Below, one piece after another: positions 7,735 to 35,693 of a stretch of DNA of 44,067 nt. Position 1 is the stretch's first letter, and each line of letters starts with the position of its first letter. A model generated the notes under the pieces. That model saw nothing but the letters and a program-made list of their open reading frames with translations, was not told the origin of the DNA and ran no database searches. The translations under genes and the position numbers were made by a program. The DNA comes from a virus: IMG/VR virus record IMGVR_UViG_3300025030_002857, positions 1 through 44,067 of that record; one strand, given 5' to 3'.

Positions 7735-10700
7735 ACGATCCAGCCCAGCGGGATAACCGCTTCCGGTCCCTTTTCCCCTAACATGCCTAATACGGGACTC
7801 TTTACAATACCACCTTCTTGGAATGGTAAAAATGGTAAAAAGCTGGTAATAGTGCCTAGAATGCCTCCCATGCCACCTTTCAATCCCCCTAAAATACCAC
7901 CTAATCCACCTCCACCTCCAAAGATGCCCATTATAGATTGCAATATTCCTTGTAAACCACCCGGAAATTTACCAAAGATGCCCAGGATGCTATCGAATAC
8001 ACCATCCATCTCTCTACCAAATTTATCAAACATACCAGTTATATTTATCATAGATTCCTCAAAAAATATCCCACCAGGAAAAGTAGTAGGAGTTCCTTTC
8101 CTTTCACCGCCTTTGCCACCAAATATATCAGTCAATCCCGGTAAAATATCAGTAAATTTTCTGGCTATTTCAGAGACTTTACCTGCTGCCTCCTCTTCCC
8201 CAACAATGATTTTTTTGACCCGCAATTCATCGGACACTATCTTGGGTATACGGGCTGCTGGTTGTTCCCATCCAAATATATCCTGGAGTAATTCAAGGAA
8301 TTTTCGCACGATCTCACCGGTAATAAAATCTGTTATAGCCCTTATAATGCCTCTTAAGAAATTCTTAAAAACATCTGTTATGGACTCCAATTCACCTGTT
8401 ATCCAATCAAAGAGAAAATCCGATAGTGTAGTGCGGATATTCTCTATTACTTCCCTGGTTGCTTCTCGTATTCGTTCAAGATAGCCAATAGCCTTGCCCT
8501 TGGCATCCTCGAAGCCCCGCATAATGGCATCGAGGACACTTGTTGAACGGTCATCTAGAATCTCCATCTCTTCGACAATTGCCCGCAAGACAGTTTGAAA
8601 CTGATCCATCTCCTCAATAGCTTCCGGGCGCATACCCATCTTTTCCAATTCCTGGCTGTATTGCTTCAAGGCCATCTGGGCCTGTTCGATAAATTGTCTC
8701 CGGGCCTCATCCTCTTCATCCATAGAGCGGGCAATCTTCTTACCGGTCTTTAATTCTTCATCCGCCCGCTTCATTACTCTATCTAGCCGCTTATCTTCTA
8801 ATTCAATAGTCCCTTTCTGTTTAGCAATAGTACCGGCAATAGCACTCCCAGTCTCTTTTTCTGCTTTTTTAGCCTCTAACGATATACGTTGTTGGGCAAA
8901 AAATTGTTCCTGTGCAAAATCACCTGCCAATCCAGCGGCCTCTTCCTGCAACTCTATATATTCGAGCAGGGGTTCAATAGCTTTTTGAAAAAGTTTTTTA
9001 TTTATATCTGTTATATCTTTTTCATAATCCTCCCAAGCTTTCGCCCCCATCAAGAGCTTTTCCTGCTCCGTTCGTGCCACAATCTCTATCTCAGCTAAAC
9101 GTTCATATAATTGTAATCGTCTTTGAGCTTCTTCATCGTCCATAATATCTTGCCGTTTTTTCTCATCTTCAATCTCTGCTTTAGTTATTGCCGCCGAGAA
9201 AGCTTTTAATACACGTTCACGCAATTTGGTATTGCCTATAGTTAATTTCAATATCTCATCAAATTCTTTTCGGGTTAATTCAACTCTTGTCATTCCTTCT
9301 TCTTCATATTTCTTAAGTAGCTTTTCGACTTCTTCACTTCTTTCTTTCGTAGCTTCTATGTCTTCCTTTGCCAACGTATCTGCTAAGATGATAAGATCAT
9401 TTAAGGCAACGCCTATCTCAGCTAAATTCAGGAGAACCGTACCTGGTTTTCCTGGAATACCAGGAATGAGAATCTTTCGCACTTCTGTTTCTGGTTTTCC
9501 TTCTAATGCTGGTGCTTTTATAATCTTTTTTGCTTCTATGCCCTCAGCTAGTGTTGTTTCTGTAAGCGCTTTTACTACCTTTTCAACTTCTTCGGCAGTA
9601 TCCAGTTTATATTCTTGCAGAAGGGCTTTGAGTTGGGCCGCTGTAAGCGCACGTTTTCTAATGGCCTCAGTAACTCCTTTTTGAAACTCTTCTTCTGTAG
9701 GCGGACGCCGAAAAAGATTGTCAACAACTTCTTTGTACTCTTTCAGCTTTTGTATGGTCTCATCTAATATGAATATAACCTTAAAGCGCATATCAGCTAC
9801 CCAATCTCTTATGCCCTTGGGAATAATATCTATAAAGCCTTTCCATGCTTTTTTAAGCAGGTTCATTGTTTCCGTGAAAACTATTCCCAAACCACGGAAC
9901 AATGCCTTAACAAGAGCAAAGCCTATTTTGAATTCTTCAACCAGAATTGTGATAAACCGAGAAATACTTCCCGGAATCGCAATATCGAATGCTGCAATAA
10001 AAAACGCAACCCAACCTGTAAAAAAACGTGCCACAAAGGTTAATGCTGGTACTAAACCAGGAACTGCTCTCCCTATAAATATTAAACCCTCACCTATTAA
10101 ACCAAGAGTTACTGCGAATTCTCTTAAAATGGGTGTTGTCAGTGTAAAGGTTTTTCCTAAATCGTATAATGTTCTAATAGGTATTGTTAACCAACGACCA
10201 AAAGATCGAACAGCTTGCCCAAGCCTATCCCAGAAGCGAAATATTAAGGCCCGTGAAGGATCTCTTACAGCGCCGCTAACTAAAAGATTAAGTTTTTTTT
10301 GAGCCTCCGCGGCTGTAATGCCTAATTTACTTGCTGCGACTGCCGATGCCTCCCCCATCGATATTGTGTGTACTCGTAATCGAGCAGCTAAAGCTCCCAT
10401 AGTCTGTGCCTGTTTATTGGATAGATCAGCAAATATTTTCGTAGCCTTTGTAGCAAGTTGGGGAGCAAGTACAAAAGAGCGTAATTGGTTCTCAACCCTG
10501 GCCAATATGGGGACTGTTCTTCCCATAGAACTACCCATGGCCTGGAAAGAAGCTCCGAGCGTACCAATTCGCTTAGCCAAAAGGAAAGTTGCGCTTAATA
10601 TTGTAGGCGCTAATAAAGCTCCATATATTCCTATAACAATTCCACTAATCTTTATCAGAAAACCGCTAGCAGCCGCTAATAAGGCAAGCACTGTGCCTAA

Positions 10701-19967: not shown

Positions 19968-20873
19968 CTACTCTTCAATACCTAGAGCCCCTATAGAAAA
20001 GCCATTCAATTCACCATTTTTAATCTTCTCCCATGCCTCGGAATTATAAACTTTTACCCCGGCTATCCAGGTATCAGCAGGAAGCAATCGCCCACATATC
20101 ACTGTATCATGAGGCAAGACCAAAGAATCCACTACTTGTATATCTGAATAACCTTCGATAGTTTTTTCATCAAATAAATTGGGCATTTTTCCTCGTCTAT
20201 CCCGGTGCTCTACCAACATGACATTATAATCTGTCCAAAATTTCCGTGCACCTTCCCTGATGGCTTTGCCACTATAGCTATGATCATGCGCATCTGGCTC
20301 ATCAGGCTTTAGGACAATACCTAAAGCATATTGTTCTTCATCTTCCATTTTTAAAAGAGTTACAGGTTCTCCCTCTCCATCTTCTTCAAGATCACTAAAA
20401 ATAATCTCATCCTCATCCTCTTCAAAGTCATCTTCTTCCGCTAGCATCAATTCTTTTCCACCCGCTGGCCGTAAGACAAAAGCCCAGGACTTAGGCTTAA
20501 AAGCTATAACTTCTCCCTTCTCATTTTCTAAAACCTTTAATCTTGGTGAGATTCCCCATTTGGAATCATCATTCTGTATCATATAATCTAACTTGTCTGC
20601 TGCATCCCGATCCACAATCCATAAGTCTCCAATGATCTGTTTTTCTTTAGTATCATAACGAATTTTACGAACTTCACCTAGCCAATTAGCACAAGAATCA
20701 TCATGATCGTAAAAGAGAGAATCTCGGTTCTTAAATTCTAAATCATCCTCAGCTATCTCTTCTTTTAACCAGGCAACTCCATTCTCTAATGCCTTGCCGG
20801 GATAAAAGATACCATTTGCCTCTCCCTCTTTCATCAAAGTTCGATTCTTTACAACATATGGTATGGCTACCAT
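19968..20873 (-). CDS. Capsid maturation protease, XkdF-like, with extra N-terminal domain
   Basis: The C-terminal half of this 301-residue protein has the XkdF serine protease pattern: YALGIVLKPDEPDAHDHSYS, REGARKFWTDYNVMLVEH, LLPADTWIAGVKV and IKNGELNGFSIGALG. The N-terminal 150 residues (SLFYDHDDSCANWLGEVRKI, then DSKWGISPRLKV) resemble the DUF2213/S78-like prohead protease fold, so the protein looks like two protease-type domains joined by an acidic linker (EEDDFEEDEDE). It cleaves scaffold and capsid in the procapsid. The gene is first after a strong promoter and has AGGAG 10 bases before ATG. Confidence 0.85.
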   Translation of the reverse strand: MVAIPYVVKNRTLMKEGEANGIFYPGKALENGVAWLKEEIAEDDLEFKNRDSLFYDHDDSCANWLGEVRKIRYDTKEKQIIGDLWIVDRDAADKLDYMIQNDDSKWGISPRLKVLENEKGEVIAFKPKSWAFVLRPAGGKELMLAEEDDFEEDEDEIIFSDLEEDGEGEPVTLLKMEDEEQYALGIVLKPDEPDAHDHSYSGKAIREGARKFWTDYNVMLVEHRDRRGKMPNLFDEKTIEGYSDIQVVDSLVLPHDTVICGRLLPADTWIAGVKVYNSEAWEKIKNGELNGFSIGALGIEE

Positions 20874-20908
20874 AAGATTTTTCTCCTATATAGAAAAGCT
20901 TTCTTGTT

Positions 20909-20938
20909 ATTGTAAATTAATTAAAATTAATTTGTCAA
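20909..20938 (-). promoter_or_regulatory. Sigma70-type promoter for the head-tail operon
   Basis: On the minus strand TTGACA (20933-20938) is followed after 18 bases by TACAAT (20909-20914): a perfect -35 box and a -10 box with five of six consensus bases, in an A+T-rich spacer. It lies in the 106-bp gap before the capsid protease, giving a leader of about 30 bases. It would drive protease, scaffold, capsid and downstream tail genes. Confidence 0.7.
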
Positions 20939-20979
20939 ACATTATATTTGTTTATGTCCTATATCCGCTATAAAAAAGA

Positions 20980-23900
20980 TTAGCTTTTCTCAAATTGCCA
21001 GAAAACCCCAGTATCTTCTTGTTTTCCTAACCATTTTCCCTTCAATCTTTTGCCTTCAAAATTCAATTCTCTTTGATTATTTTCTTCTGCAATAACTACT
21101 TTACCAGCATCAGCCTGTTCAATAAAAGCAGGGATCGTTTTGTTGGGATTTCCGAATTTCCCTGCCGGTATCTTCCCTTCCCAGGTAAACCAGGCAACAA
21201 TATCTTTTTTATTAAAAGGCGGTTTCTGTAATTTATTTAAGCGCGCCGATAAAGGCCCATCAATCTCCAATGGATTAAACTCGAATTGATATTCCTCTAA
21301 ATATTTATTGCTATCTGATTCCATAATCAAATCCCAATGTTCAATCGGCAAATCCCGCACCACCGTATTATGCACTGGACCAAGAGCCGACAAGAAAGAT
21401 CGTGCCGAAGTCCACCGACTCTTAACTTCTAAAGATATGAAAGAACGAAACTCATGATGTATAGTAATTTTTTTTATAGGCGTATAAACAAAAAAGGTCT
21501 GCCCAATTTCTATAGCCGTCTTAATCAATTGCTGGCTATATTTTTCCTGCGTCATATCAGGGTTACAAGCTGATAAATGCTTATAAAGAATAAATGAAGG
21601 TGCTCGAAAACCACAATCTGAACAAATAAATACCGGAATCTTTAATTTATCACCTTGCTTCAAGGCATCAGCCCTAACCCATCCTTCATATAAATCATCT
21701 GCTGATCGAATCCATATCGGAGTATTCTCTGTTATCGCCTTAGTCCATTGTCCTGATTTCCAGTTTTCTTTCTGAGGATCATAGATCGTCAAGCCATAAA
21801 CGATCTTTAAATATCGAGGAAAGACTATGCGGTGTGCCTTAATAATCTCTAGAGGTTTGAGATCAGAAGCAAGAATAAAATTTCTATCCTTCAACTCACC
21901 GGCCTTAATCAGACCCATTGGTGCCGCAATCTCCAAGCTTGGATCCACACATTGCCCTTTGTAGTAATGCCTGTTCAAAACAAATCTTCTAGTCTTTCCA
22001 GCTCTTAAATCAATACTATCCGGTCTTAATAATGCCTTTCCAGTATCCTTTACCAATCCCGCTTCTTGAATCTCGGATTGAATAGTTCTGCTCAAGATAT
22101 CAGCATTATGCCGTAAATATTCTTGAAAGCTTGTGCTATCCAGGGTATTAATAGTGAATTGTAAAGAAACTTTTTGTTTCTTTGCTTTTGCTTTCTCCTT
22201 CAGATAGGCATAGGCATCATCCATATGGTTTAACATTTCAGCACGAGACAAATCCTTTCCCCACCAGCGCATCTCTTCTGGGACCTTCTCTTCCCACCAA
22301 GGTGGGAGTCCAGAAATGATCTCTTTTCCATCCGGTACCCAATCCCTTTTCTTTCTCCCCCGGGTGGTCAGGATATAAGGGGTATCAGTTTTTGCAATGA
22401 ATCCAGCCCAGAAGGTAGGAGTTTTTAATGGCGTCCTCATCTTCTTCGGCTCTTCTGGGGTGGCTATTTGTCTGAAGACCAATCGCTTCCGATAATAAAT
22501 CTCTTTTGGTCCTTTCATATCAAGAAAATACTCTTCGAAATATGGCCTTCGGATACCGGGATAAGCGAAGCCTACAGCCCGGGTAATAAAGACACCCTCT
22601 TCGAATCGTGTATTATGGGAGATACCCAGAGGCGTTAGATAATTCTCATGTTTTTTGATACTTAGATTATATGTTGTAGCTACTCCATCAAATTCTCTAA
22701 TCATAATAGGATGCAATAGCCAATACTTATTTCGTGATGATTTCCAGCCCCATTGTCGAAATTGTTTTATAATAGTCCTCTTTAATCCCTGTATCGGAAT
22801 AGTCATATAAATATAAGGATGTTCATACCAATCTCCATCCTTATCCTTCTTTTGGCCATCCTCTTTTAATGCCTCCAGAAAAATATCTTTTGTTAATTCC
22901 CATCCTATTTTTGCTATGTCACTGATCAGATCACTTTTATCAATATGGGCACAATACCATAGATGATCATAGGTAGCGCCTACATAGAATTCCCCAACCT
23001 TAATCTCATATTTCTGCTTGGGATCAGCCGGATTCTCAAAGACCTCCTGTACCCGATCCCATTGCATAATCATCAATCCATTCTCTGCTTTTGCCCGTAC
23101 CGAGACCTTATGACCCCGTGAGATGCCCCTGATATTCTGCCACCCCCGGGCCATTAAAACATCTACTTCAGTCAGGCAGGCTCCAGTAGAACCAGGCTCA
23201 ACAACATTCTCTCTGGCAACATTGATCCAGATTTGCGGTTGGGATGCCTTCCTCTCAACTAAAACCTTTTTATTAGGATCCATGTCAGGTCCGAATTTCC
23301 ATTCTGTTTGATCGGTTATCTTCCGACCCTGTTCAATGGTATTTATATCCTCTTTGATAATCCCAGCCGGTTGATCATCAATAGTCCATCCCCTCAAGTG
23401 GGAATTAAATTTTACACGAAAGTCGAGGTGAGCTGAGGCCCCACGAAAATGCTCTGACATGATAGCATAATGCTGCGGATATTTATTAGGAGCAACTTTC
23501 AGCTTCCAATTCAGCCATTTGTCAGGATTAACCTTTGCCAGTGCTGAAATATCTTCTTCAGCCTTTTTTATCTGCTGGGAAGAGGCCTTAATAATCCTTT
23601 CTGCATCGATATAGATATCGGGTTCTGTCCGTTCGGTATCAATTTCTTCTAAACGTGGGTTTTCCCAGGCGATCCCCTGGGTCCCATCTGGCCTCTTAAA
23701 GAAACGCATCGTGGTAGGCCTAATTGTAGCAATATCCCCAATCCTGGGGGCCGGATCCAGTTTCTTAGCATAGGTTTTACCATATGCTATTTCTGATTTC
23801 CCCCGATTTTTAAACCCAGCCCCCATCTGCCAGATATGCGGATCTTCGGTTCCTGACCAGACTTTGCGTTTAGCATCCCATCTCAATTCCAAATCGCCTT

Positions 23901-24633
23901 GCGATAATCGATGATCGCTTTCTATAGCTATCAGAGTCTTTCCATCTTTTCCTAAAATAGCCCCCCAAAGAATATAGGTCTCGGATTTCTTTTGCAGTTT
24001 TTTAAAGGCATCTAGAGCTTCCTGGCCAGTCAGATCCCCATCTGGTTTTTCAGGCCATGGATTAGGCTCAATTAGAATGCCTATAGTTTTTATTTTAAGC
24101 TCATAAGTTATCTTGACTTTAACCCACCCAGGTCCCCGACCAATTTCATAAAGACTTTCCAATTCTTTCCCCATAAAACCCTCGCTCGCCGGGAAAGCAA
24201 TCGCCTTCTTTACTGCCGCATCATATTCTTTCTTATTGGATACTTCCCAGGATGGCATACGCTTGATATATTTCAAGTCTTTAGGCAGGATCTTATCGAG
24301 GATTTTTAGACGTTCGGAAAGCGGCTTTTGAGATATATCCTCTTCATGATAAGGGATATCGAAGACATAATACCAGGTCTCTTCATCTCTAATAGGTTCT
24401 TTACCCACCCCTACTTTGGCCATCTCGGCCCGAGGAATAAGCTGCCCATCCTTGATCAGAATTAATTCTCCATCAAGGATAAAATTATCATGACGAAGCG
24501 ATTGAATTTCTCTCACCAAATCAGGCAGAATGGTACTACGTTCTTTGCCGCCATCAGTATAGACTTTTACTCCATCATTTTTATGAATTTGGATCCTAAA
24601 TCCATTTATTTTCGCAGAGATTTCAACAGCCAT
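20980..24633 (-). CDS. ATP-dependent DNA ligase with LigD 3'-phosphoesterase-like domains, carrying two inteins
   Basis: This is a 1217-residue precursor, about 833 residues after removal of the inteins at 486-674 and 895-1089. Residues 1-310 are a ligase core: motif I KINGFR (K8, with Asn in place of the usual Asp), ILDGELI, YYVFDIP, EGFMGKEL and GWVKVK, so the key residues are present although the usual N-terminal DNA-binding domain is missing. Residues 370-480 contain SEHFRGASAHLDFRV and GWTIDDQP, like LigD phosphoesterase domains. A second such domain is rebuilt by splicing, RFVLNRHYYKGQ joined to TVVRDLPIEHWDL. Residues 823-855 copy the tape-measure C-terminus. A TAA stop lies two codons upstream, so ATG 24633 is the first start. 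Probable role: end-healing and joining of DNA. Confidence 0.85.
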   Translation of the reverse strand: MAVEISAKINGFRIQIHKNDGVKVYTDGGKERSTILPDLVREIQSLRHDNFILDGELILIKDGQLIPRAEMAKVGVGKEPIRDEETWYYVFDIPYHEEDISQKPLSERLKILDKILPKDLKYIKRMPSWEVSNKKEYDAAVKKAIAFPASEGFMGKELESLYEIGRGPGWVKVKITYELKIKTIGILIEPNPWPEKPDGDLTGQEALDAFKKLQKKSETYILWGAILGKDGKTLIAIESDHRLSQGDLELRWDAKRKVWSGTEDPHIWQMGAGFKNRGKSEIAYGKTYAKKLDPAPRIGDIATIRPTTMRFFKRPDGTQGIAWENPRLEEIDTERTEPDIYIDAERIIKASSQQIKKAEEDISALAKVNPDKWLNWKLKVAPNKYPQHYAIMSEHFRGASAHLDFRVKFNSHLRGWTIDDQPAGIIKEDINTIEQGRKITDQTEWKFGPDMDPNKKVLVERKASQPQIWINVARENVVEPGSTGACLTEVDVLMARGWQNIRGISRGHKVSVRAKAENGLMIMQWDRVQEVFENPADPKQKYEIKVGEFYVGATYDHLWYCAHIDKSDLISDIAKIGWELTKDIFLEALKEDGQKKDKDGDWYEHPYIYMTIPIQGLKRTIIKQFRQWGWKSSRNKYWLLHPIMIREFDGVATTYNLSIKKHENYLTPLGISHNTRFEEGVFITRAVGFAYPGIRRPYFEEYFLDMKGPKEIYYRKRLVFRQIATPEEPKKMRTPLKTPTFWAGFIAKTDTPYILTTRGRKKRDWVPDGKEIISGLPPWWEEKVPEEMRWWGKDLSRAEMLNHMDDAYAYLKEKAKAKKQKVSLQFTINTLDSTSFQEYLRHNADILSRTIQSEIQEAGLVKDTGKALLRPDSIDLRAGKTRRFVLNRHYYKGQCVDPSLEIAAPMGLIKAGELKDRNFILASDLKPLEIIKAHRIVFPRYLKIVYGLTIYDPQKENWKSGQWTKAITENTPIWIRSADDLYEGWVRADALKQGDKLKIPVFICSDCGFRAPSFILYKHLSACNPDMTQEKYSQQLIKTAIEIGQTFFVYTPIKKITIHHEFRSFISLEVKSRWTSARSFLSALGPVHNTVVRDLPIEHWDLIMESDSNKYLEEYQFEFNPLEIDGPLSARLNKLQKPPFNKKDIVAWFTWEGKIPAGKFGNPNKTIPAFIEQADAGKVVIAEENNQRELNFEGKRLKGKWLGKQEDTGVFWQFEKS
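21367..21951 (-). other. Intein 2 of the ligase (residues 895-1089)
   Basis: Starts at Cys895 (CVDPSLEIAAPMGL) and ends GPVHN at 1089, followed by Thr1090 as +1 residue. Block B appears as TENTPIWI, in which the usual His is Thr. The 195-residue element contains a zinc-ribbon-like CSDC...H...C insert (residues 1004-1023) but no HNH or LAGLIDADG endonuclease. Its removal joins HYYKGQ to TVVRDLPIEHWDL and restores a phosphoesterase-type motif. Boundary residues and the restored extein support the call. Confidence 0.75.
22069..22167 (-). repeat. Copy of tape-measure C-terminal segment inside the ligase
   Basis: The 99 bases coding VSLQFTINTLDSTSFQEYL... differ from bases 7618-7716 at 22 positions (77/99 identical) and encode a closely similar peptide in the same frame (SLQFxINTLDxxxFxEYLRxNADILS). 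It is the only such similarity I noticed between distant genes of the window. Confidence 0.85.
22612..23178 (-). other. Intein 1 of the ligase (residues 486-674), mini-intein
   Basis: Begins at Cys486 (CLTEVDVLMARGWQNI), has a block B TYDH at 554-557, and ends with the typical YNLSIKKHENYLTPLGISHN before Thr675. At 189 residues and without an HNH or LAGLIDADG motif, it is a mini-intein. Splicing joins VVEPGSTGA to TRFEEGVFI, giving a continuous domain. Confidence 0.88.
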
Positions 24634-24637
24634 AATA

Positions 24638-24859
24638 TTAAACTATATCCATATTTGAATTTTCCCACTGCTTCTCCATACTACGAAGCGATGAATAAGG
24701 AATATTCAATTTTCTAATTCGAAATCCTGGAGGTAATTGAATCCAGTTTGCCTCAAACCAAGCATATTGATTAGGTGGAATAACTCCTTGATAATTTCCT
24801 AACCTACTAAAATAATAAAAAGCAATGCCAACAATTAATATTACAATCATATAGCCCAT
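24638..24859 (-). CDS. Small membrane protein, unknown function
   Basis: The ATG at 24859 overlaps the upstream stop as TAATG and follows AGGAG, so translation is coupled; a longer frame from 24901 lacks this. The 73-residue product has an N-terminal membrane helix (YMIVILIVGIAFYYF) followed by a short soluble part (VIPPNQYAWFEANWIQLPPG). No family is recognised. It sits between the nuclease-like and ligase genes. Confidence 0.65.
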   Translation of the reverse strand: MGYMIVILIVGIAFYYFSRLGNYQGVIPPNQYAWFEANWIQLPPGFRIRKLNIPYSSLRSMEKQWENSNMDIV

Positions 24860-26934
24860 TATTTTTCTCCTTCCATAAATATTTTTGCCCATTGCTCCCA
24901 TGCTTCAGAACTCGAAAAAAATTCTCCCCGGTGATATGCCGTCTTAGAAGTTTTCATTGGGGCGAAGAACTTTCCCAATTCTATCTTTTTATTGGTCATC
25001 CGGACGATCTTCCATTCCTCGGGAGGTTTAAACCTAACCTCCAGATCAGCCAATGGGATATAAGAAGTAATCGGGCCTCCATCAATACTAGACACCATAT
25101 GAATCCGATCCTTAAATTCCTCTGGTAATATGGATCTTAATCGGTATTCAATGAGATCAATCAATCGTTCCGCGGATTTATCCGTCCAGTTAATCCAGAT
25201 ATCCAGGTCAGTACCCCTGCCTGAAATAACCGTGCCCCCGATCATAGCAAGAAAGGGTTCTTTCACAATAATATCAGTAAAATTTCTCTGTAGGGCCTCT
25301 AATGGTATTTTATGTAAGACAGATAAGCTTTTATCAAGAGAATCCAATGCTCTATGTTCCAGCTTCCGTTTATGCATCTCATCTACGATTAATTGATGGG
25401 AATTGATAGTAAGTTCGTCACTTTGTCGATTCCCTCTCTGTGCAAAGATATCGTGGATTTTACCATGGAGAGTGATAAGCTGCATATCGCTTATCCTGCT
25501 TAATTTATCTGGATCCAGATTGAATATATCTAAACTATCTAATTGTTTCATCAATTGAACAAAAGTCTGAGTCCCTGCTTTTATCCGTACCCTCTTGGGC
25601 GTTAAAAGAGGAAAACGATCTTGTATAGGATAATAATAAAGTAATCCTTTTTTCGCCCACCAAGATTTTCGTTCTGAATCCGATATCCGATGCGATTCAA
25701 ATAATTTATTAAATTGATCAAGATTGATTTCTTTTGGTTCCTTGAATCTCGCATAACCATATAACTTATTATCACTTATGATTCCAAGAGGTTCCTGAAT
25801 AATATCAAATTTCTTGGATTTCACTAATGCTTTTTTAGAGCCATCAATAATCATCTTTCCATGAGGAGGAACAAGATATAAAGCCCGCTTTGCTATTTTG
25901 CCTATAATCTCAGGTAAAATTCTTTGTGTAATTGGCTTTTGTTTTTCTGGATGGAAAGTTGTTTTCCCACGATTAAATATTTCTCTAATTATTTTTTCTA
26001 AGAATTCTTTTGCCTCATCAATACTCGAGAATTCGCTTTTCCCTCCACGCCTCATAGTTGAGAGTTTGCCGAGAGTTAATCTTAAATCATCACTTAAAGC
26101 TATATCTGTTATCTTTGATGGATCATATCCCTCTAACCGGAAAAGCATAGCTTCTGTAGATAAAGATTTGCTGGTCTTATAATAATCAGGAAAATCCATC
26201 TTCATATTATCCCGAGCAACTTGAGTCTTGATCCCATATTTCCTTCCTATTTCAGCTACTGCTAGAGTAAGATCGTTATAAGCCAGGCCAATATGCCCTA
26301 CATGGGTTATGATAACATTTCTGATATTAAACTTATCTGCTGTTATCAAAGCAGATTCAATACTAGCATGACCTACATTTCCAGATCTTTTAATATCTCG
26401 CCGCAAAGACGAGCCATCAACAATTAATAATTTCACTCCACGCAGCTTTTCTGGCTCCAGAAAACGTAAATAATCAGGGGCATAGATAATCTGATTAAAT
26501 TTAATAGCAATAGCTGGACTCAATTTGCTATGATTGACTTTTATAGGCTCAAAAAGAAGACCGCCTATTTCCTGTGGCAGCTCCAGAAATTCTCCTGTGA
26601 GCTGAAACCGATTTTTAACATCATCTAGGGTAGGTTTATGGCTCCATACTGGAAAAGGAACTTCACCTCGAGCAAATTCCCGCAGAGCATATGAATGATC
26701 ATGATGACTATGAGATAAAATAAGTGCCTGATACTTGGCCATAGAAAGCTCTCCTATAGCCTCCCCTCCTGCGTCTATTCTAATTCTATGCTCATCAAAT
26801 TCTACTAATAAAGATGCCTGTTTATAATGATAAAAGCGATCCTTCATGCGCCTGGCCTCTGCATCTTGCGCGGTCTTCATATCCTTTCTTGGAAAGACTT
26901 TCTCTGAACGGGTACCTAAGAATGTTAGCTTCAT
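24859..26934 (-). CDS. Metallo-beta-lactamase fold / nucleotidyltransferase fusion
   Basis: This is a 691-residue protein. The first 230 residues are an MBL-fold hydrolase: LTFLGTR, a metal site HSHHDH at 75-80, a VNHSKLSPAIAIKF strand, IIYAPDYLRF, LLIVDGSS, GNVGHASIESAL and ITHVGH. This resembles a subgroup that I associate with bacterial DNA repair genes. The middle has unassigned helical parts, including LITLHGKIHDIFAQ and NSHQLIVDEMHKR. Near residues 560-600, MIGGTVISGRGTDLDIWI is a polymerase-beta type nucleotidyltransferase motif (GG...S...DxD). It overlaps the upstream gene by ATGA and is followed by the ligase. Probable role is DNA end processing; substrate untested. Confidence 0.75.
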   Translation of the reverse strand: MKLTFLGTRSEKVFPRKDMKTAQDAEARRMKDRFYHYKQASLLVEFDEHRIRIDAGGEAIGELSMAKYQALILSHSHHDHSYALREFARGEVPFPVWSHKPTLDDVKNRFQLTGEFLELPQEIGGLLFEPIKVNHSKLSPAIAIKFNQIIYAPDYLRFLEPEKLRGVKLLIVDGSSLRRDIKRSGNVGHASIESALITADKFNIRNVIITHVGHIGLAYNDLTLAVAEIGRKYGIKTQVARDNMKMDFPDYYKTSKSLSTEAMLFRLEGYDPSKITDIALSDDLRLTLGKLSTMRRGGKSEFSSIDEAKEFLEKIIREIFNRGKTTFHPEKQKPITQRILPEIIGKIAKRALYLVPPHGKMIIDGSKKALVKSKKFDIIQEPLGIISDNKLYGYARFKEPKEINLDQFNKLFESHRISDSERKSWWAKKGLLYYYPIQDRFPLLTPKRVRIKAGTQTFVQLMKQLDSLDIFNLDPDKLSRISDMQLITLHGKIHDIFAQRGNRQSDELTINSHQLIVDEMHKRKLEHRALDSLDKSLSVLHKIPLEALQRNFTDIIVKEPFLAMIGGTVISGRGTDLDIWINWTDKSAERLIDLIEYRLRSILPEEFKDRIHMVSSIDGGPITSYIPLADLEVRFKPPEEWKIVRMTNKKIELGKFFAPMKTSKTAYHRGEFFSSSEAWEQWAKIFMEGEK

Positions 26935-27524: not shown

Positions 27525-28244
27525 TTACGCAATTCTCAAAGAATATTTCTCTTTTAACTCTTTTCTGATTTGCTTCCAAAGTTCTTGTTTGTCGGGTCGA
27601 AAAGTTAATTGACAGTGGTGTTGCCGATAATAATGAAGAGATTCAGCTAAAACCGGAATCCCTCCTTTAAATGCCAATGCACGGGCACAGCGCAACATCA
27701 AGTCCCAATCCTGATAGCCCATCAGATCGATTTGTAGGCCCCCTACCTCGTCGAAGAAGTCTCTTGCTATTAAGATTTCGCCATAGTCGACATAATTATC
27801 CGTTTGCAATAATCCAAAAGTAATCATAGATGGCTTCGGCGTCCGGCATATAACCCCTGGCTCTTCAATCCCATCCTCAGTAACAACCCGGGAATTGCAT
27901 ACCACTATAGGGCTGTTAATTTGTAAACTAAAATTAAGCATCTTTTCAATAAAATATTCATGCTTCCAATTATCATCATCCAGAAAAGTTAAATAATCTC
28001 CATCTGAGTGTTCTACACCATATTGAGCAGCAGAAGCAGGGGTCTCTAATTCCCCATAAAATATCTTGACTCTAGCTCCATGCTGACTCAATAAAGGTAC
28101 TAGGCAGGAGCTTATTTCCTTCTGATCTACCAAGATCAATTGCCATTCAGGATAAGTTTGAGCAAAAACCGATTCAATAGCCTTTGTTAAAAAATCGATT
28201 CTCTGCCAGCCTAAAAGAATTATAGAAATAAGAGGTAAGGACAT
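27525..28244 (-). CDS. Glycosyltransferase family 2
   Basis: This 239-residue protein has the GT-A fold: ISIILLGWQRIDFL at the start, WQLILVDQKE, the metal-binding FLDDDNW (D89-D91) and MGYQDWDLMLRCA near residue 180. It transfers a sugar from a nucleotide donor, acceptor unknown. ATG follows the TAA of the HAD gene directly, so it is coupled to the sugar-synthesis genes (HAD, kinase, isomerase). Length is usual for a soluble single-domain enzyme. Confidence 0.85.
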   Translation of the reverse strand: MSLPLISIILLGWQRIDFLTKAIESVFAQTYPEWQLILVDQKEISSCLVPLLSQHGARVKIFYGELETPASAAQYGVEHSDGDYLTFLDDDNWKHEYFIEKMLNFSLQINSPIVVCNSRVVTEDGIEEPGVICRTPKPSMITFGLLQTDNYVDYGEILIARDFFDEVGGLQIDLMGYQDWDLMLRCARALAFKGGIPVLAESLHYYRQHHCQLTFRPDKQELWKQIRKELKEKYSLRIA

Positions 28245-28931
28245 TTAGTTAAATAAATCTTCGACATTAACATCATCCCAACAAGAATATACTTTAAATG
28301 CTCCGGCTTTTAGCATTTGAGCCATAAATGAATTATTATTTAACGTTGGTATACCAATAGGAATACTATTAGCTCTACGTGCTGCTATAATACCATTTAT
28401 AGAATCCTCAAAAACCAATTGCTGTTCAGGTAAGATATTCATTCTCCTTGCTGTTTTTAGATAGATTTCTGGATCTGGCTTAACTTTCTTTACATCTTCT
28501 CTTAATAAAATACATTCTGGAAAGAAATATTGATCTAAACTGCTTTTTTTTAATAATATTTCTGCAATAGAACGGGTAGTAAGAGAGCCAATAGTCATTG
28601 GCAAACAACGATCTTTAAATGAACAATATATTCTTAAAAAGCTTTTCCTTATTTCAATCTTATCTATATCTTCTAAAGATTTAATAAAATAATATCGTGT
28701 TCGATTTAAAATAAAATCAGATTGATCCTTATTACTTTTATTTAATAAAGCAGCAATTTCCTCCGCTATTGCCTCATCGGGACCCCCCACAAAATGTGGG
28801 ATATATTTAATAGCTTCCTCTAATTCCATATGAATACCAAATTCCCGGGCAGCGGCTAAATGCCCTTGCCAATGCAAATACTCTAAATCAATTATTGTCC
28901 CTTCAAGATCAAAAGCGATTCCTTGTATCAT
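28245..28931 (-). CDS. HAD-family phosphatase (sugar phosphate, phosphoglucomutase-like)
   Basis: Start set at ATG 28931, preceded by GGAGG; a longer frame reaches 29012 but would overlap the kinase. The 228-residue protein has motif I FDLEGTIID (D8 nucleophile; second acidic residue Glu rather than Asp), a Thr/Ser region MTIGSLTTRS, KPDPEIYLKTA and FEDSINGIIAARRA. This is the beta-phosphoglucomutase/phosphatase HAD type I subfamily. In context with a GmhA-like isomerase and HddA-like kinase it may play the phosphatase step of a heptose pathway; it is not canonical GmhB. Confidence 0.75.
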   Translation of the reverse strand: MIQGIAFDLEGTIIDLEYLHWQGHLAAAREFGIHMELEEAIKYIPHFVGGPDEAIAEEIAALLNKSNKDQSDFILNRTRYYFIKSLEDIDKIEIRKSFLRIYCSFKDRCLPMTIGSLTTRSIAEILLKKSSLDQYFFPECILLREDVKKVKPDPEIYLKTARRMNILPEQQLVFEDSINGIIAARRANSIPIGIPTLNNNSFMAQMLKAGAFKVYSCWDDVNVEDLFN

Positions 28932-28962
28932 AAGGAAAACCCCTCCTTTAGCTGGCAGTGGT

Positions 28963-29934
28963 TTACGGATTACTAAAATCCAAACAGACTCCATCTGATT
29001 CAACAGCGACATCTAAAGCAGGAAAAAGAGTAAACCGTTCTTTAAATTCTGCCTTATTACGCACGCATACTAAATAAAAACCCTGTGCCCCAGCTCCGCA
29101 GCTTTGATAGGCATCAACCCCTGCATAAATTATAGACTCTATTATTTTTTCACTTTCTTGAGGTCTATGTATAGGACTCATCAATCTTAAAGTATGACTT
29201 TTTTGTATCAATTGAAAAAGATCTTCATAGGAAATATGAGGTATTGTTTTTGCAAAGTCCTCAGCTAATCTTGTGCTCTCCTCTATTGCCTCCAGATTAA
29301 ATGCCTCTTCTCGATTAAGGTCTAAATAACGGGTGCGTTCCTTTGAATTTGGAATTAACAATAGATGCTCCTTAACTAATCTATTAAAAGCAATGATTTC
29401 TTTTTCAGGATATCTATAATGTTTAACGAGACTGGAATTTTTAATACCGATCATATTTACTCCTCCAGAAACCGCTGCAATATGATCTTGTATTCCAATA
29501 GCAGCACCAACTCTATTTATCTCGATCTCTATAGCATCTTGAAAAATAGCCATTGGAGTTATTTTTTCTTTCTTCCTGGCACGAAGTGCTAAAGAAAGGG
29601 CACATATAAGAGCTGATGATCCTCCTAAACCAGTCCCTTTTGCTGATAAATCACTGGTTATATGAATCTCTAAGGGTTGGTTTGATAAATCATAAAATTT
29701 TAGTGCCTCACGAATCAAATTATGCTTAATATCTTCTATCGAATCTACTCTTTCAATCTCAGAATATTGGATGACCCATGATTTTAAAAACCGATCATGG
29801 ATGGCGCAATAAACACGATAAGGGATGCTAAAGGATATAATGGAACCGGATAAGCCTGATCTCTGATATATAGGCAAATCGGAAGAACCGCCAGTTAAAC
29901 TAATCCTCATAGGGGCTGAAGCCAATAAAAACAT
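28963..29934 (-). CDS. hddA: HddA-like heptose-7-phosphate kinase (GHMP family)
   Basis: ATG 29934 has GGGGAG 8 bases upstream and follows the TGA of the isomerase gene. The 323-residue product carries PMRISLTGGSSDLP at the start and the ATP-binding GTGLGGSSAL at about residues 100-109, as in D-glycero-D-manno-heptose 7-phosphate kinases. The end has CGAGAQGFYLVCV, the third GHMP motif. It phosphorylates the sugar at C1 on the way to a nucleotide-activated heptose. The preceding GmhA-like gene supports the pathway; the exact substrate is inferred. Confidence 0.8.
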   Translation of the reverse strand: MFLLASAPMRISLTGGSSDLPIYQRSGLSGSIISFSIPYRVYCAIHDRFLKSWVIQYSEIERVDSIEDIKHNLIREALKFYDLSNQPLEIHITSDLSAKGTGLGGSSALICALSLALRARKKEKITPMAIFQDAIEIEINRVGAAIGIQDHIAAVSGGVNMIGIKNSSLVKHYRYPEKEIIAFNRLVKEHLLLIPNSKERTRYLDLNREEAFNLEAIEESTRLAEDFAKTIPHISYEDLFQLIQKSHTLRLMSPIHRPQESEKIIESIIYAGVDAYQSCGAGAQGFYLVCVRNKAEFKERFTLFPALDVAVESDGVCLDFSNP

Positions 29935-29938
29935 CAAT

Positions 29939-30469
29939 TCAACTCCCCAATAACCATCGGTTAAAGGCTGCTTTTATACAATGGCCAATAATTAAATGCA
30001 TATCCTCATTAATTCCATCATTATCCGATTGTATAGGAATAATAAGCTGATATTGAGATTGAGGTGGAGGATTAATTCCTGTTAGCAATATAGCTCTGGG
30101 ATAATCAGCAGCAATAGCTAGAATAGTTGGCGAACGGCCTGAAGAGCTAAATGCAATAAGCAATTCTTTTCCTATTCGTCGTTTTCGCTTGAAAGCACTG
30201 GAATAGCCATAATCATTTGCTCGTGCTGTTAAAAATGCAGGACTGAATATTTTTGTTTGAAATCCTAGAGATTCTAAATCAATAGCCCAATGCTCTGCAG
30301 TACAATATGAGCCACCATTGCCACAAAAAGTTATAGGCCATTTGTGTACATAAGCTTCCTGGAGATCAGAAATAAGCTCTGTAAATAGATATTCAGCATT
30401 GTGGGGCAAATAATCTATTAATTGATTTAAATAGCTTGATATTTCCAATCCTGGTAAATCAATTAACAT
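29939..30469 (-). CDS. gmhA: GmhA-like sedoheptulose-7-phosphate isomerase (SIS domain)
   Basis: ATG 30469 is preceded by AAAGG; a TTG at 30478 would add three residues. The 176-residue product has the SIS signature FCGNGGSYCTAEHWAIDL (compare GmhA's GNGGSA-x-x-A-Q-H) and IAFSSSGRSP near residue 112. It would make D-glycero-D-manno-heptose 7-phosphate from sedoheptulose 7-phosphate. It overlaps the radical SAM stop by 11 bases and is followed by the HddA-like kinase. It lacks the usual Zn-binding details I could verify, so the substrate is a family-based inference. Confidence 0.75.
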   Translation of the reverse strand: MLIDLPGLEISSYLNQLIDYLPHNAEYLFTELISDLQEAYVHKWPITFCGNGGSYCTAEHWAIDLESLGFQTKIFSPAFLTARANDYGYSSAFKRKRRIGKELLIAFSSSGRSPTILAIAADYPRAILLTGINPPPQSQYQLIIPIQSDNDGINEDMHLIIGHCIKAAFNRWLLGS

Positions 30470-32420
30470 TGGCTGCAATCCTTTGCTGGATCTTTTTCAA
30501 GAACTCATAATCAATATTCTTAATTTTTTGGCAACAGGGTGAATAGGCACTCCAATTTTCATTCAGGATTAAGCCATTCTCTTTACAATAATCATAAAGC
30601 TTAGAGCCAGGGAAAAGAGTATAGATAGATGGGGATAGTCGCTCGGGTTTAATCTCTTCGATAAACTGCGCGGTTTCTAATGCCTCGGCATGAGTCTCAG
30701 TAGGCAGCCCGAGAATGAAATTGCAAAAAATCTTTACTTTATTTTCTCGTAATATGGCAACGGCTTCTCGGGTTATTTCTTTTGTAGTCTCTTTCTTAAT
30801 AAATTCTAATACCCTATTGCTTCCTGATTCCACGCCAAGCGAGACCCAGATCAATCCGATCTTTGCCAGACCAGCTATTAACTCTTTTCGTTCAACAATT
30901 ATTCTGGGATGGATCTGCATAAAAAAAGGAGCCGAGCCGAAAACAGCGCCAAACTGCTCGATAAACTCTTCTATCCAGGAGGGCTTGGCAACTAAATCAT
31001 CATGGAACATAATCGAATTAAAAGAAGATTGATCTCGTAATTGTTTTAATTCTGCCATAACATTTTCTACAGAGCGCATACGTGGAGGTCCATTTATTCG
31101 CCTTCGATCTGAGCAGAATTTGCAGTTATGCACTAAGACATCATTGGCATAAAACCAATCAAATTCAGGTACTTCAAGACAATAAACATCTTCTTTCTTA
31201 GATAATTTTATTACTTCACTCACTTTGTGATTTATTCCTTCGGAATAAAATGTTGATACTCGTGATTTTTCTCCTATATATTTTCCATCTTTATAATTTG
31301 GATTTTTTTCTCCTTGTTTTGACAAAGAATATCGGATACGTTGTTCAAAGGTTCTTTTTTTCCCAGTTATTGCCTGACGTATTTTTTCACGTGATTCTGA
31401 AGTGCAATATTTTGAAGGATTATTTGTTCTCATCCGTTCCTTAATTTCTGGATGAAAAATAAAATGATCCTTTTGATTTCTTACATATATCAAATTTTTG
31501 ATTGAATTATCTTTTTTACATCTATTATCATGATGAACCAGTTCACTTCGTTTTAAAGGCCGTCCTAATTCATATTCTATTTTTAACCTCGATAGTCTTT
31601 TTTTTAATTTTCGCCTCCAGGTAATAATAGGATAACCATATGCATCTATATATTCATGAATTGCCCGCACGCGCATTCCTGGTTTCAAATGGTCTGCCCG
31701 AATTTCTTCTTCTCTTTCTCCGATAAATTGATTACCCCATTTAAATATTTTGAAGAGATGGTCCGATGTACAATCAATGAATGATCCATTATCAAACTTT
31801 ACTCGTATCAATTCTGCATTTGTTCGTGTCTTTGCTACCATCCTCGGTTTAACAAATAATATTCGATCATTCTGTGAATCAAGCGTCATAACAGGATAAG
31901 GATCAGTCATTTTAGCTAGGTCCTTAATGGGAATTTTGCCATTTATAGTATTAACTGCTGTATCACCTGCCAAACAATGAAAAGAGCATCCCCTTCCCAA
32001 GATCATAGTCAAAACCGGCGATTTTAATTCTGGAAATAAAGGAAAATTCATTTCTTCTATCCCAAAAATATTCCGGTCAATAAAAGGCAACCTATCTAAC
32101 CCTACTAGACGACAATTTGCACCAGAATCAGGACCTATACCATCCGGGCCATATTCTATGAAGGTTGGTAATAGATATTCCCCTTCACCTCGAATGACCA
32201 TATCTGCCCCAGTCTCTTCTTCTATCATCTCACTTAAAGAGGCATGGGCACCTCCCACGATAATCTTCGCATTCGGTTTATTTTTTCTCAAAATCTCTAT
32301 GGCCCTCTGCCCATGCAGATAATCTGTAGATAAATACGAGAAACACCAAAAATCTGCATCAACGGATTGGCAGATCTGATCCCATGTATGCCAAGAAGCC
32401 AGTTTTCTGAAATCAAACAA
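30459..32420 (-). CDS. B12-binding radical SAM enzyme interrupted by an intein; N-terminus frameshifted
   Basis: The open frame begins at TTG 32420 because the first part of the B12-binding domain lies in another frame upstream. Residues 20-90 are the remaining Rossmann half (AKIIVGGAHAS, MVIRGEGEYLLP). The radical SAM core starts at GRGCSFHC (C145, C149), where an intein (residues 149-432) sits; after splicing, C-x3-C-x2-C (CSFHCKFC) is rebuilt. SLGVESGSNRVLEFIKKET and FCNFILGLPTET are typical later segments. Such enzymes do methylations or rearrangements on lipids, sugars or antibiotics; the substrate here is unknown, but the neighbouring genes suggest a glycan or its precursor. Confidence 0.85.
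   Translation of the reverse strand: MFDFRKLASWHTWDQICQSVDADFWCFSYLSTDYLHGQRAIEILRKNKPNAKIIVGGAHASLSEMIEEETGADMVIRGEGEYLLPTFIEYGPDGIGPDSGANCRLVGLDRLPFIDRNIFGIEEMNFPLFPELKSPVLTMILGRGCSFHCLAGDTAVNTINGKIPIKDLAKMTDPYPVMTLDSQNDRILFVKPRMVAKTRTNAELIRVKFDNGSFIDCTSDHLFKIFKWGNQFIGEREEEIRADHLKPGMRVRAIHEYIDAYGYPIITWRRKLKKRLSRLKIEYELGRPLKRSELVHHDNRCKKDNSIKNLIYVRNQKDHFIFHPEIKERMRTNNPSKYCTSESREKIRQAITGKKRTFEQRIRYSLSKQGEKNPNYKDGKYIGEKSRVSTFYSEGINHKVSEVIKLSKKEDVYCLEVPEFDWFYANDVLVHNCKFCSDRRRINGPPRMRSVENVMAELKQLRDQSSFNSIMFHDDLVAKPSWIEEFIEQFGAVFGSAPFFMQIHPRIIVERKELIAGLAKIGLIWVSLGVESGSNRVLEFIKKETTKEITREAVAILRENKVKIFCNFILGLPTETHAEALETAQFIEEIKPERLSPSIYTLFPGSKLYDYCKENGLILNENWSAYSPCCQKIKNIDYEFLKKIQQRIAANVN
31125..31976 (-). 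other. Intein with HNH homing endonuclease in the radical SAM gene
   Basis: The 284-residue element starts Cys149 (CLAGDTAVNTINGKIPIKD), has a block B SDHLFK near residue 217-222, and ends NDVLVHN before Cys. Between them lie an HNH motif (LVHHDNRCKKDNSIKNLIYV) and NUMOD3-like repeats (KIRQAITGKK; KQGEKNPNYKDGKY), so it is a full homing intein. The DNA is A+T rich. It is placed between the first and second Cys of the Fe-S motif. Confidence 0.93.
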
Positions 32421-32560
32421 CTGACCTGATGGCCATCCTCTTTAAGTATGGTAATCAGCATAGCTACTCCATGGCTGATCAAGGTCCCTTCAAAGCCCCG
32501 ATTGAAGCTATTGAATCCCGGGACTTGAATATTCACATAGGCAAAAATTATCCTGGCCAT
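32421..32560 (-). pseudogene. Frame-displaced N-terminus of the radical SAM B12-binding domain
   Basis: ATG 32560 codes for MARIIFAYVNIQVPGFNSF..., then LKEDGHQV, a classic start of a cobalamin-binding domain (hydrophobic strand, then L-x-x-x-GH-x-V). At about 32421 the reading frame has to shift by one base to continue as LFDFRKLASW in the gene at 30459-32420. Without the shift, the frame runs on to 32297 into unrelated sequence. No slippery heptamer is seen. A one-base deletion, or a sequencing error, best explains this. Confidence 0.7.
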
Positions 32561-32761
32561 TTAGATATAATTCCTAATTTTCATGATTATCCCCACCGGA
32601 CATCGGCAATGTTTCTCGCATTTTTGACAGAACCAGCAACCCGAAAAGATTCTACAGGCGCATAAATATTCTGTTAAACACCCCCGGTCCTGTATCGGCG
32701 CATTACAGCAAGGACAAACAGAATTATAAACAATCTGAACTATGGGGCTAATTGGCTGCAT
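32561..32761 (-). CDS. Small cysteine-rich (zinc-binding) protein
   Basis: From ATG 32761 (M4 of a longer frame) this about 66-residue protein contains CPCC, then GCLTEYLCACRIF and CWFCQKCEKHCRCP, 13 or so cysteines in all. It resembles a pair of fused zinc ribbons. It overlaps the end of the methyltransferase gene and precedes the B12-binding radical SAM gene with no gap. Role unknown; metal-binding accessory is possible. Confidence 0.5.
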   Translation of the reverse strand: MQPISPIVQIVYNSVCPCCNAPIQDRGCLTEYLCACRIFSGCWFCQKCEKHCRCPVGIIMKIRNYI

Positions 32762-33425
32762 GATATTCAAATATCCTTAGTCCCAGATGCCAACCTTTTT
32801 CTTTCGGTTGTCCATAATATCCTATCTCTCTTATGCCTTTATCAGAATATGAGGCCAATATCTGTTCCGTTGCCTCCCATACCTCCCCGACCCATTCCGG
32901 CAAATCTTTCTGAAACCTGGCGGCATCATCAAAAATTAGTAAAGCATCCCTGGATAAATAGGGATAGATCAATTCAAAATATCGTAATACGGCATCCTTG
33001 GTATGAAGCGCATCAAAAAAACACACGCCAATATTATTGATAGGATCAGAAGCAAAAGCCGTTTCAATAGATTGCGCTTTAAACTTAAAATGTGCAGGGA
33101 GGCCATCAGGAAATATCATACTCAAATTGGTAAATAGATGCCCTGTGTTCCCACCGTATTGACTAAAATCATCGATGGCAATAAAATTTTTATCTTCATT
33201 ATGGAGCATAGCTCCACAAAGGGTTAGTCCCCGATGGGTCCCTAATTCCACAAAAGTTTCATCATTCTCCATAGCCTTTACTGCTATATTCAAGACCATT
33301 AAGATATTAGCCGAGGTCATCCCCCCAAACTCGGGTGTTCCGATCTTCTCAATAACTTTTGATAAATAATCATTCGGTATTCGATTCACTGTCTTTAATT
33401 GCTCTAGAAAATATTTCAGCCTCAT
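32748..33425 (-). CDS. SAM-dependent methyltransferase (Methyltransf_24-like)
   Basis: This 225-residue protein has the class I motif I TFVELGTHRGLTL, motif II-like NFIAIDDFSQY and a CFFDALHTKDAVLRYFELIYPYLS segment followed by LIFDDA, the arrangement of cephalosporin-hydroxylase/Methyltransf_24 enzymes, which act on sugars or small metabolites. Its ATG overlaps the glycosyltransferase TGA as ATGA. It probably methylates a sugar unit. Confidence 0.75.
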   Translation of the reverse strand: MRLKYFLEQLKTVNRIPNDYLSKVIEKIGTPEFGGMTSANILMVLNIAVKAMENDETFVELGTHRGLTLCGAMLHNEDKNFIAIDDFSQYGGNTGHLFTNLSMIFPDGLPAHFKFKAQSIETAFASDPINNIGVCFFDALHTKDAVLRYFELIYPYLSRDALLIFDDAARFQKDLPEWVGEVWEATEQILASYSDKGIREIGYYGQPKEKGWHLGLRIFEYHAAN

Positions 33426-34303
33426 GAGATCATCTCTTCTACATCTGGAATGCCAGATCCCCAGCCAGACCAGGCTTTTGCCTGTTCAAACCATCTCCAT
33501 TGCTCAACATAAGAGCGATTATAGATTACTGGAGCCTGTTGACACTTATCTCTCCATGCCTTTTCTGCATGGCCTAGATGCCACCAGGGTCCCACTGCAT
33601 GATACAGCCGGTATCCCCATATGATACCCAGGGCACATCCTTGCGCTCTTACATAATCTCCCCATTCACCATTCATATCCGACATTATTCCCGCATGGCT
33701 TTTCCATGAATATCCTCGCAGCAGATCGGTCTTCCAAATAGCACAAGAGCCTGAGAATGTATGGGGAGGTGAAAGCAGAATTGCCTGATTGCCACATCTA
33801 ATCCAGGAGCTATCTAGCCCTTGAGGGTCAATTACAGGGATATTTTCTTCAACTATATTTTCATATTGAAATCGTGGCTCGGAAAAACTATTATAATCAA
33901 CTCCTCCCCAAGAAACCCCCATCTGATTTCTCTCATCCCTGGGGCCACCGAGATTTAAACCAGCCAGAGTAGGGTAATTTTCAAAGCATTCTATCATGGC
34001 TGGCAACCAGCCTTTGGTTACTAGCCATATATCATCATCGATACTCATCACATAAGGGGTAGTCACAATTTTTAATAATTTATTCCTGGCTTCGGTCCCA
34101 ATATTAATCTTCGAGTGCATAGGAATGAAATAAGGCCATTTTTTTAAAGTAGCCAGATAATCTGCCGTATCATCCTCTGAGGCATTATCCCAGATATAAA
34201 TCATAACCTGCTCTCTTTCTGTGGTCGCATAGAGACTATAGATGCAGCGTTCCACAAATTCCCGCCGATTTCTGGTAACAAGTAATACGCTTAATTGGCT
34301 CAT
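33422..34303 (-). CDS. Glycosyltransferase family 2
   Basis: This 293-residue GT-A enzyme has LSVLLVTRNRREFVE, IYIWDNASEDDTADYL and SIDDDIW (D89-D91). The later part (GSCAIWKTDLLRGYSW) is a usual acceptor-side segment. A reasonable AAGGATTTGGG site precedes ATG 34303. It is followed by the overlapping methyltransferase gene, so sugar transfer and methylation may be coupled. Confidence 0.85.
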   Translation of the reverse strand: MSQLSVLLVTRNRREFVERCIYSLYATTEREQVMIYIWDNASEDDTADYLATLKKWPYFIPMHSKINIGTEARNKLLKIVTTPYVMSIDDDIWLVTKGWLPAMIECFENYPTLAGLNLGGPRDERNQMGVSWGGVDYNSFSEPRFQYENIVEENIPVIDPQGLDSSWIRCGNQAILLSPPHTFSGSCAIWKTDLLRGYSWKSHAGIMSDMNGEWGDYVRAQGCALGIIWGYRLYHAVGPWWHLGHAEKAWRDKCQQAPVIYNRSYVEQWRWFEQAKAWSGWGSGIPDVEEMIS

Positions 34304-34365
34304 ATCCCAAATCCTTCCCCCCTTTAAATATGTGCTAAGCCATTAAACCGATCTGTTGCATTTTT

Positions 34366-34947
34366 TTAACCTTTTATGGTCCTCACCCAAATATGAACCC
34401 CTTGATCCCATGAATCTAATGATTCCACTGGGACAATGGTTCCATCGGTATGATGATAACCAGGAAAGATGTCTTTCTTCTGTAATTTAGATTGATATTT
34501 TTCCAGAAAATCATGAATCATTTCCGCTGTCCATCCACTCTGATGGGTATCAAGATCAAACTTTTGCCATCCCCAAAGTAATCCTCGCAAAAATATCCAA
34601 TTTACCTTTCCCTGATTGTAGAGTTTTATCGCATGGTCTACTGGCGGAAAATTGAATTCAATAATACCTTCTGGTATTAATATGCGTAACCATTCTTCAA
34701 ATGCGAGAGTACATTGGCGATAATTCATGTGCTCCCACATTCCACGGCCATAAATATGGCCTATTGAGGCATCTTCAAAGGGCAATTCCCAAGCAAAACA
34801 TTCGATCTCGATATGATGCTCTCCTTCAGGGACATGAGGATCAGTATGTATCCATTCATCCCATTTTTCTCTTCCAAAACCACCAGAGCCTACCTCAACT
34901 TTAAAAGGCTTAGGAAACCCCTTCAGATCTTTTAATATCCTGGGCAT
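34366..34947 (-). CDS. SAM-dependent methyltransferase (type 11-like)
   Basis: The 193-residue protein has a class I core: KVEVGSGGFGREKWD (motif I, VGSGG), then DPHVPEGEHHIEIECFAWELPFEDASI and MWEHMNYRQCTLAFEEWLRIL, which carries the D/E-H-(M/I/V)-x-x-x-E segment common in type 11 enzymes. It is likely an O- or C-methyltransferase for the glycan of the island. A 62-base gap separates it from the downstream glycosyltransferase. Confidence 0.75.
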   Translation of the reverse strand: MPRILKDLKGFPKPFKVEVGSGGFGREKWDEWIHTDPHVPEGEHHIEIECFAWELPFEDASIGHIYGRGMWEHMNYRQCTLAFEEWLRILIPEGIIEFNFPPVDHAIKLYNQGKVNWIFLRGLLWGWQKFDLDTHQSGWTAEMIHDFLEKYQSKLQKKDIFPGYHHTDGTIVPVESLDSWDQGVHIWVRTIKG

Positions 34948-34954
34948 GTTTTAT

Positions 34955-35683
34955 TTATCCCGGCAGTGTTGCCAGAAATGCATCCCAGGCAGGTCCAAAT
35001 ATCTCGCTATTCAGAGGAAAGCTGCTTCGATAGACAATCGTATCTTTATCCCAATGACCAAAGCGCAGGGTATAGATCACAAAATAAGGAATATGACTAT
35101 CTTTAAATATTTCTTCCCATACATTCCAGGCAACCATATTCACATGTTCGGGTGCATTCTGCCATTCCTCTTCAAATTGCTCCCGTCGTGGATCATCAAT
35201 CTCTGGCAACGCGGCAAAGCAGGTAAATACGTTTTCACCTACTCCAATCATCTTCTCGATCAGTTTCCCGCCATTTATTATCGGCAGATGTTCTAGTAAA
35301 TCCTGCATGAATATCAGAGAAAATTTAACCTTCTTACTCGGCATTCCCACCCGGAAAGGCCGATCCTCACAAAACTTTAATGCATCCATACAGAAGAGAT
35401 ACCGGCTGATTTCCTCCGGGGCATTCTCGATGGCATATTTAGAAAAGTCCACCCCCCAGGCATTTACCCCTCTATCCCGGAATGCCTTGACATAATAACC
35501 CTTGGCACATCCCAAATCCAGACACGATTTAGGCTGGAACAAGACCATAGCCAGATCAACCAAGGTAGGATTAATCGAAGCCTCACTATAGCCCTTATAG
35601 CCCACTAATGCCTCAGGGTCATCATAATAGTGATAATCATAAAAACTGCCATCCAATAAATTAATCTTTTCTAAATCCTGCAT
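34955..35683 (-). CDS. SAM-dependent methyltransferase
   Basis: The 242-residue protein has motif I CLDLGCAKGYYVKAFRDRG at about residues 54-72, acidic GVDFSKYAIENA and the LIFMQDLLEHLP active-site strand. It has a strong AAGGAGG ribosome-binding site. It is a soluble class I methyltransferase placed between two glycosyltransferase/methyltransferase pairs. The acceptor is unknown. Confidence 0.85.
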   Translation of the reverse strand: MQDLEKINLLDGSFYDYHYYDDPEALVGYKGYSEASINPTLVDLAMVLFQPKSCLDLGCAKGYYVKAFRDRGVNAWGVDFSKYAIENAPEEISRYLFCMDALKFCEDRPFRVGMPSKKVKFSLIFMQDLLEHLPIINGGKLIEKMIGVGENVFTCFAALPEIDDPRREQFEEEWQNAPEHVNMVAWNVWEEIFKDSHIPYFVIYTLRFGHWDKDTIVYRSSFPLNSEIFGPAWDAFLATLPG

Positions 35684-35693
35684 CCCTACCTCC

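Follow-up and report, generated by a model that had tools for sequence, protein, structure and literature searches.

A tape measure C-terminus-like segment in the linker of a modular phage DNA ligase

A short segment of a phage DNA ligase is probably a recent in-frame copy of the C-terminal end of a tape measure protein (TMP), most likely that of the resident TMP, placed in an insertion-tolerant linker where its likeliest role is that of a tolerated extension. We favour this reading because the segment is homologous to TMPs, is missing from related ligases and lies in a linker of variable length. The DNA analysed, here called the window, spans the 44,067 bases of a virus record in IMG/VR, and the features discussed are collected in Table 1.

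Table 1. Positions of the ligase segment, its counterpart at the tape measure end and neighbouring features in the window
Feature	Position	Strand	Basis or remark
TMP ORF, 1398 aa, frameshift-shortened before the C-terminal segment	7716-11912	-	PF10145, TIGR01760, PHROG TMP families
Matching segment at TMP C-terminus, in the frame adjoining the TMP ORF	7618-7716	-	profile match 7588-7743
Tandem pentamer CCAGCCCAGC (CCAGC CCAGC), at the point of the TMP frame change	7740-7749	+	
XkdF-type serine protease, encoded by its own gene here, fused to the ligase/phosphoesterase protein in many relatives	19968-20873	-	PF14550 E 6e-17
Ligase ORF, 1217 aa	20980-24633	-	PF01068; relatives of domain 1 match PF13298; alignments A1 and A4
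Putative intein 2, at KGQ^T of phosphoesterase-like domain 2	21367-21951	-	C start, HN end
TMP C-terminus-like segment in the ligase ORF	22069-22167	-	protein-level similarity spans 22057-22170
Putative intein 1, at GA^T of phosphoesterase-like domain 1	22612-23178	-	C start, HN end
Metallo-beta-lactamase and nucleotidyltransferase-like ORF	24859-26934	-	PF12706

A repeat shared by the tape measure and ligase genes

An earlier note on this DNA had claimed that the two segments match at 77 of 99 bases and code for the same type of peptide. An exact count confirmed the 77 identical positions, which lie on the same strand, and the minus-strand translations of the TMP-end and ligase copies, SLQFNINTLDGANFAEYLRRNADILSTTIVSDI and SLQFTINTLDSTSFQEYLRHNADILSRTIQSEI, were identical at 24 of 33 residues. 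When the window was compared with itself by blastn, this pair was the strongest repeat (82% over 93 bp, E 6e-19). Because the next-best pair had an E-value of 0.011, chance could be excluded, and chance similarity was rejected as well on the matches to a profile of outside TMPs described below. The divergence of the two copies, calculated on few sites, was about 0.56 for dS and about 0.20 for dN.

Only the C-terminal ends of the annotated TMPs of three phages, HTVC026P, HTVC111P and DSL-LC06, went into the outside-TMP profile, which was searched against 11,117 distinct ORFs of the window and of the relatives fetched by then. Apart from its seeds, it matched the TMP end of the window (E 1.4e-5) and the ligase (E 0.0015), and after these the next match had an E-value of 0.64, with none other below 0.1. 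The ligase peptide also matched positions 1180-1222 of 1225 in the TMP family PHROG 3779 (E 0.006), which places the match within the last 45 residues of that family. A tblastn search of 50,697 phage records with the ligase peptide gave three matches (best E 0.08), among them the TMP ends of HTVC026P and HTVC111P, and a search of phages with the TMP-end consensus matched TMPs alone. TMPs from unrelated phages carry the peptide type at their very C-terminal end, namely those of the Pelagibacter phages HTVC026P, HTVC111P and HTVC202P, DSL-LC06 and contig L159, where it makes up the last ~45 residues of the protein. Within IMG/VR, the TMP-end profile matched a single locus, a TMP, and the DNA pattern for FxEYLRxNADIL had no other match; more than 600 stretches matched the short TMP motif, and rare further non-TMP carriers may be among them.

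The profile of outside TMPs, PHROG 3779 and the TMP ends of unrelated phages thus agree with the earlier assignment of the peptide to a TMP C-terminal type, and at the level of sequence the homology of the ligase peptide to TMP C-termini is well supported. The segment has the motif F-x-I-N-T-x-D-x3-F-x3-L and the length in common with the C-terminal segments of siphophage TMPs (HTVC026P/HTVC111P, DSL-LC06, PHROG 3779). However, it is terminal in those proteins, whereas the copy in the window ligase is internal to the ORF.

The TMP ORF of the window was recognised by PF10145 with an E-value of 5e-23. The tail-tip cassette that comes next gave a BR0599/baseplate hub match, a Phage-tail_3 match and, weakly, a DUF2460 match; its hub protein lies at 2588-3418 and its DUF2460-like protein at 3425-4051. 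The stop of the TMP ORF falls immediately before the C-terminal peptide, which is encoded in the neighbouring frame (a 131-codon open frame, 7576-7968). A frameshift at the tandem pentamer removes the last ~60 codons of the ORF. Position and homology bear out the earlier description of the peptide as TMP C-terminal, but the peptide is out of frame with the TMP in this assembly. Since the last 30 aa of the TMP of phage TP901-1 are essential for tail formation (PMC5099701), the frameshift would be either an indel error of the assembly or the mark of a defective or recoded genome.

The ligase linker in the window and in relatives

The ligase ORF consists of an ATP-dependent DNA ligase domain (residues 6-174; PF01068 E 5e-23), a LigD-type phosphoesterase (PE)-like domain 1, the linker that bears the segment and a PE-like domain 2, and the segment is in frame within it. 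PF13298 (3'-phosphoesterase) was matched by seven of ten aligned family members, with a best E-value of 1.9e-7; the window member taken alone was unmatched. Two putative inteins, one in each PE-like domain, were assigned because relatives are continuous across both junctions, and Pfam gave no intein match for either of the two intervals. The combination of ligase and PE-like domains within a single protein recalls the LigD-type DNA repair proteins (PF13298), a likeness drawn at the domain level; phages with Ku or LigD are also known from the literature. Unlike LigD, the ORF has two PE-like domains, and a Pfam scan showed no polymerase domain in it. The gene belongs to a phage and sits in the head cassette, and in the family its product is often joined in a single polypeptide with domains of the metallo-beta-lactamase (MBL), nucleotidyltransferase, methylase or XkdF protease type.

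Neither the whole ligase nor the segment brought up any relative in exact-peptide searches of IMG/VR and GTDB. Ligase relatives in IMG/VR were gathered by a degenerate DNA pattern (H-x-D-x-R...GWT) and then by profile A1. At E<=1, the motif was present in 0 of the 67 other IMG/VR ORFs carrying PE domain 1, some of which are overlapping fetches of one contig. It was likewise absent at E<=1 from anywhere in the records of 47 relatives when these were searched with the TMP-end profile A2, which matched the window, the positive control, twice. Linker length varied from 13 to 441 aa across 40 non-duplicate measurable relatives, none of which had the motif. In the closest relatives, L112-L114 (42-48% identity in the search), the linker is short and without the segment; in alignment A4, it aligns on both sides of an insert found in the window only. 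The insertion of the segment is known from this one genome.

Other relatives carry different inserts at the same linker. These include a MethyltransfD12 domain (D12-class adenine methyltransferase, Dam-type; E 2e-20), an AAA+ ATPase domain (PF00004 E 3e-18) in another phage (L152, 3994-5316), a probable zinc-cluster domain and other small domains. Because of this diversity of inserts, the linker between the two LigD-type domains is, as judged from the sequences of the family, an insertion-prone joint.

The earlier note had asked whether related ligases contain the segment and had named, as the alternative, a segment common in the ligase family without similarity to TMPs. The search was run and the segment was absent from the relatives, so this alternative does not hold: a common ligase-family segment was rejected on its absence from all 67 other ORFs, the closest relatives among them. 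Together with the DNA-level E-value of the repeat, the same absence makes it extremely improbable that the segment is an ordinary part of the ligase or a chance resemblance.

Origin and role of the segment

The direction of transfer was likely from TMP to ligase, since other phages have the motif at the end of their TMPs and other ligases lack it. The resident TMP, or one closely related to it, was the likely donor, because the two copies in the window resemble each other far more than they resemble any outside TMP. We propose that TMP C-terminal coding DNA was copied, most likely out of the phage's own TMP gene, and that the copy was inserted by recombination, in frame, between the two LigD-type PE-like domains of the modular ligase. 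Some details fit another history, in which a related phage's TMP was the donor or the resident TMP end was replaced by the copy borne on the ligase. The ligase copy aligns to positions 10-47 of the TMP profile and the window TMP to positions 5-39. Near the end of the segment, the ligase copy is nearer to the outside TMP consensus than the window TMP is, and therefore a related phage could have supplied it; PHROG 3779 was also matched by the ligase copy and not by the window TMP end. However, with the window copies 82% identical in DNA and only about 25-40% identical in amino acids to any outside TMP, and with the motif belonging to TMP C-termini rather than to ligases in other phages, both versions of this history are decidedly improbable. 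The copying of a short coding module between unrelated genes is familiar from phage mosaicism and intragenomic domain shuffling, but the piece moved here is a structural tail anchor and the recipient is an enzyme. No published account of a TMP tail anchor moved into an enzyme was found in a literature search of partial coverage.

As a copy of a TMP end, the segment would be a solvent-exposed extension of the linker that leaves the ligase and phosphoesterase activities unchanged. It may form a helix-kink-helix appendage, as AlphaFold2 predicted this pattern at matching residues of the ligase linker (pLDDT about 58-69) and of the TMP end, in both cases with low confidence. Docking to tail-hub proteins is a possible extra role. 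A stronger form of this idea takes the segment for a functional docking peptide that binds a partner of the TMP end (the tail hub, a TMP chaperone or the distal tail protein). The ligase would then travel with the particle, on it or inside it, or be retained where particles are assembled, and could act on the incoming genome. We consider this unlikely, although several observations speak for it. The TMP C-termini that have been studied are hub anchors (TP901-1, PMC5099701; JBD30, PMC11445458), and in JBD30 the last 33 residues of the TMP trimerise within the core of the baseplate (PMC11445458). By analogy with these phages, it is conceivable that the segment docks to the hub. Moreover, all six residues that are invariant in the aligned core of TMP ends are kept in the ligase copy, which could point to function rather than to a passenger, and relatives fuse the ligase with an XkdF-type protease.

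Against a docking function, no relative uses a peptide of this kind, and profile A2 had no convincing match among solved structures, where sequence homology to the ends of JBD30, T5 and 80alpha was not found. A purely neutral model was disfavoured (P 0.007 for nine or fewer changes), but a neutral ligase copy combined with a constrained TMP fitted the observed amino-acid conservation (P 0.11 to 0.91 for nine or fewer changes across settings), and thus the selection tests do not separate a functional graft from a passenger. A large folded enzyme would not be expected to fit the tail lumen, and a ligase of roughly 95 kDa beside the TMP is unlikely there. Targeting of the ligase to the tail or virion by the segment is possible; the earlier note had raised it for the tail or capsid, for example for ejection with the DNA. 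We consider an insert that the linker tolerates more likely than a functional targeting tag. It is distinctly doubtful that the phage has re-used its hub-anchoring TMP end as a tag on the ligase, with end-processing and ligation enzymes carried in the virion and delivered with the genome.

Neighbouring genes and possible virion association of the ligase family

A role in head processing has been proposed for XkdF-type proteases (PMC7824862), and ligase and XkdF-type protease are both encoded in one ORF in L010, L011, L012, L016, L022, L134, L136 and L150. Such giant ligase/PE/XkdF modular ORFs often add MBL, nucleotidyltransferase or methylase parts, and in L113 and other relatives the MBL/nucleotidyltransferase part and the ligase are one polypeptide; in the window, the parts are separate ORFs (19968-26934). 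The MBL/nucleotidyltransferase ORF and the ligase ORF are separated by a small ORF (24638-24901) with what looks like a membrane helix at its N-terminus, and the gene may have been split at this point, as the flanking ORFs are one polypeptide in relatives. Because of the fusion to a proposed head-processing protease, virion association of the ligase family is plausible on domain content, and the fusion is a stronger hint than the TMP peptide that ligases of the family may enter the capsid. A literature search, again partial in coverage, found no description of the ligase/PE/XkdF fusion.

Elsewhere in the window, about 16 kb downstream of the virion cassette (27525-44067) hold glycosyltransferase-like, sugar-kinase-like, methyltransferase-like and radical SAM genes. 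Within this region are a B12-binding radical SAM protein interrupted by an intein (30459-32420; PF14890 E 7e-12), an amidase (39365-39928) and an RRXRR protein (39956-40972). No terminase or portal gene was recognised in the 44,067 bases of the window.

Even as a passenger, the segment points to a hot spot for insertions in this ligase family, a single joint that takes up entire enzymes as well as structural fragments. If the graft is functional, a natural tail-assembly signal would have been moved onto a cargo enzyme, and the loading of cargo into siphophage tails or heads would become directly testable. The presence of a ligase, a LigD phosphoesterase and a head protease in one chain suggests repair enzymes that may travel in the capsid, where they could, for example, serve to seal genome ends after entry.
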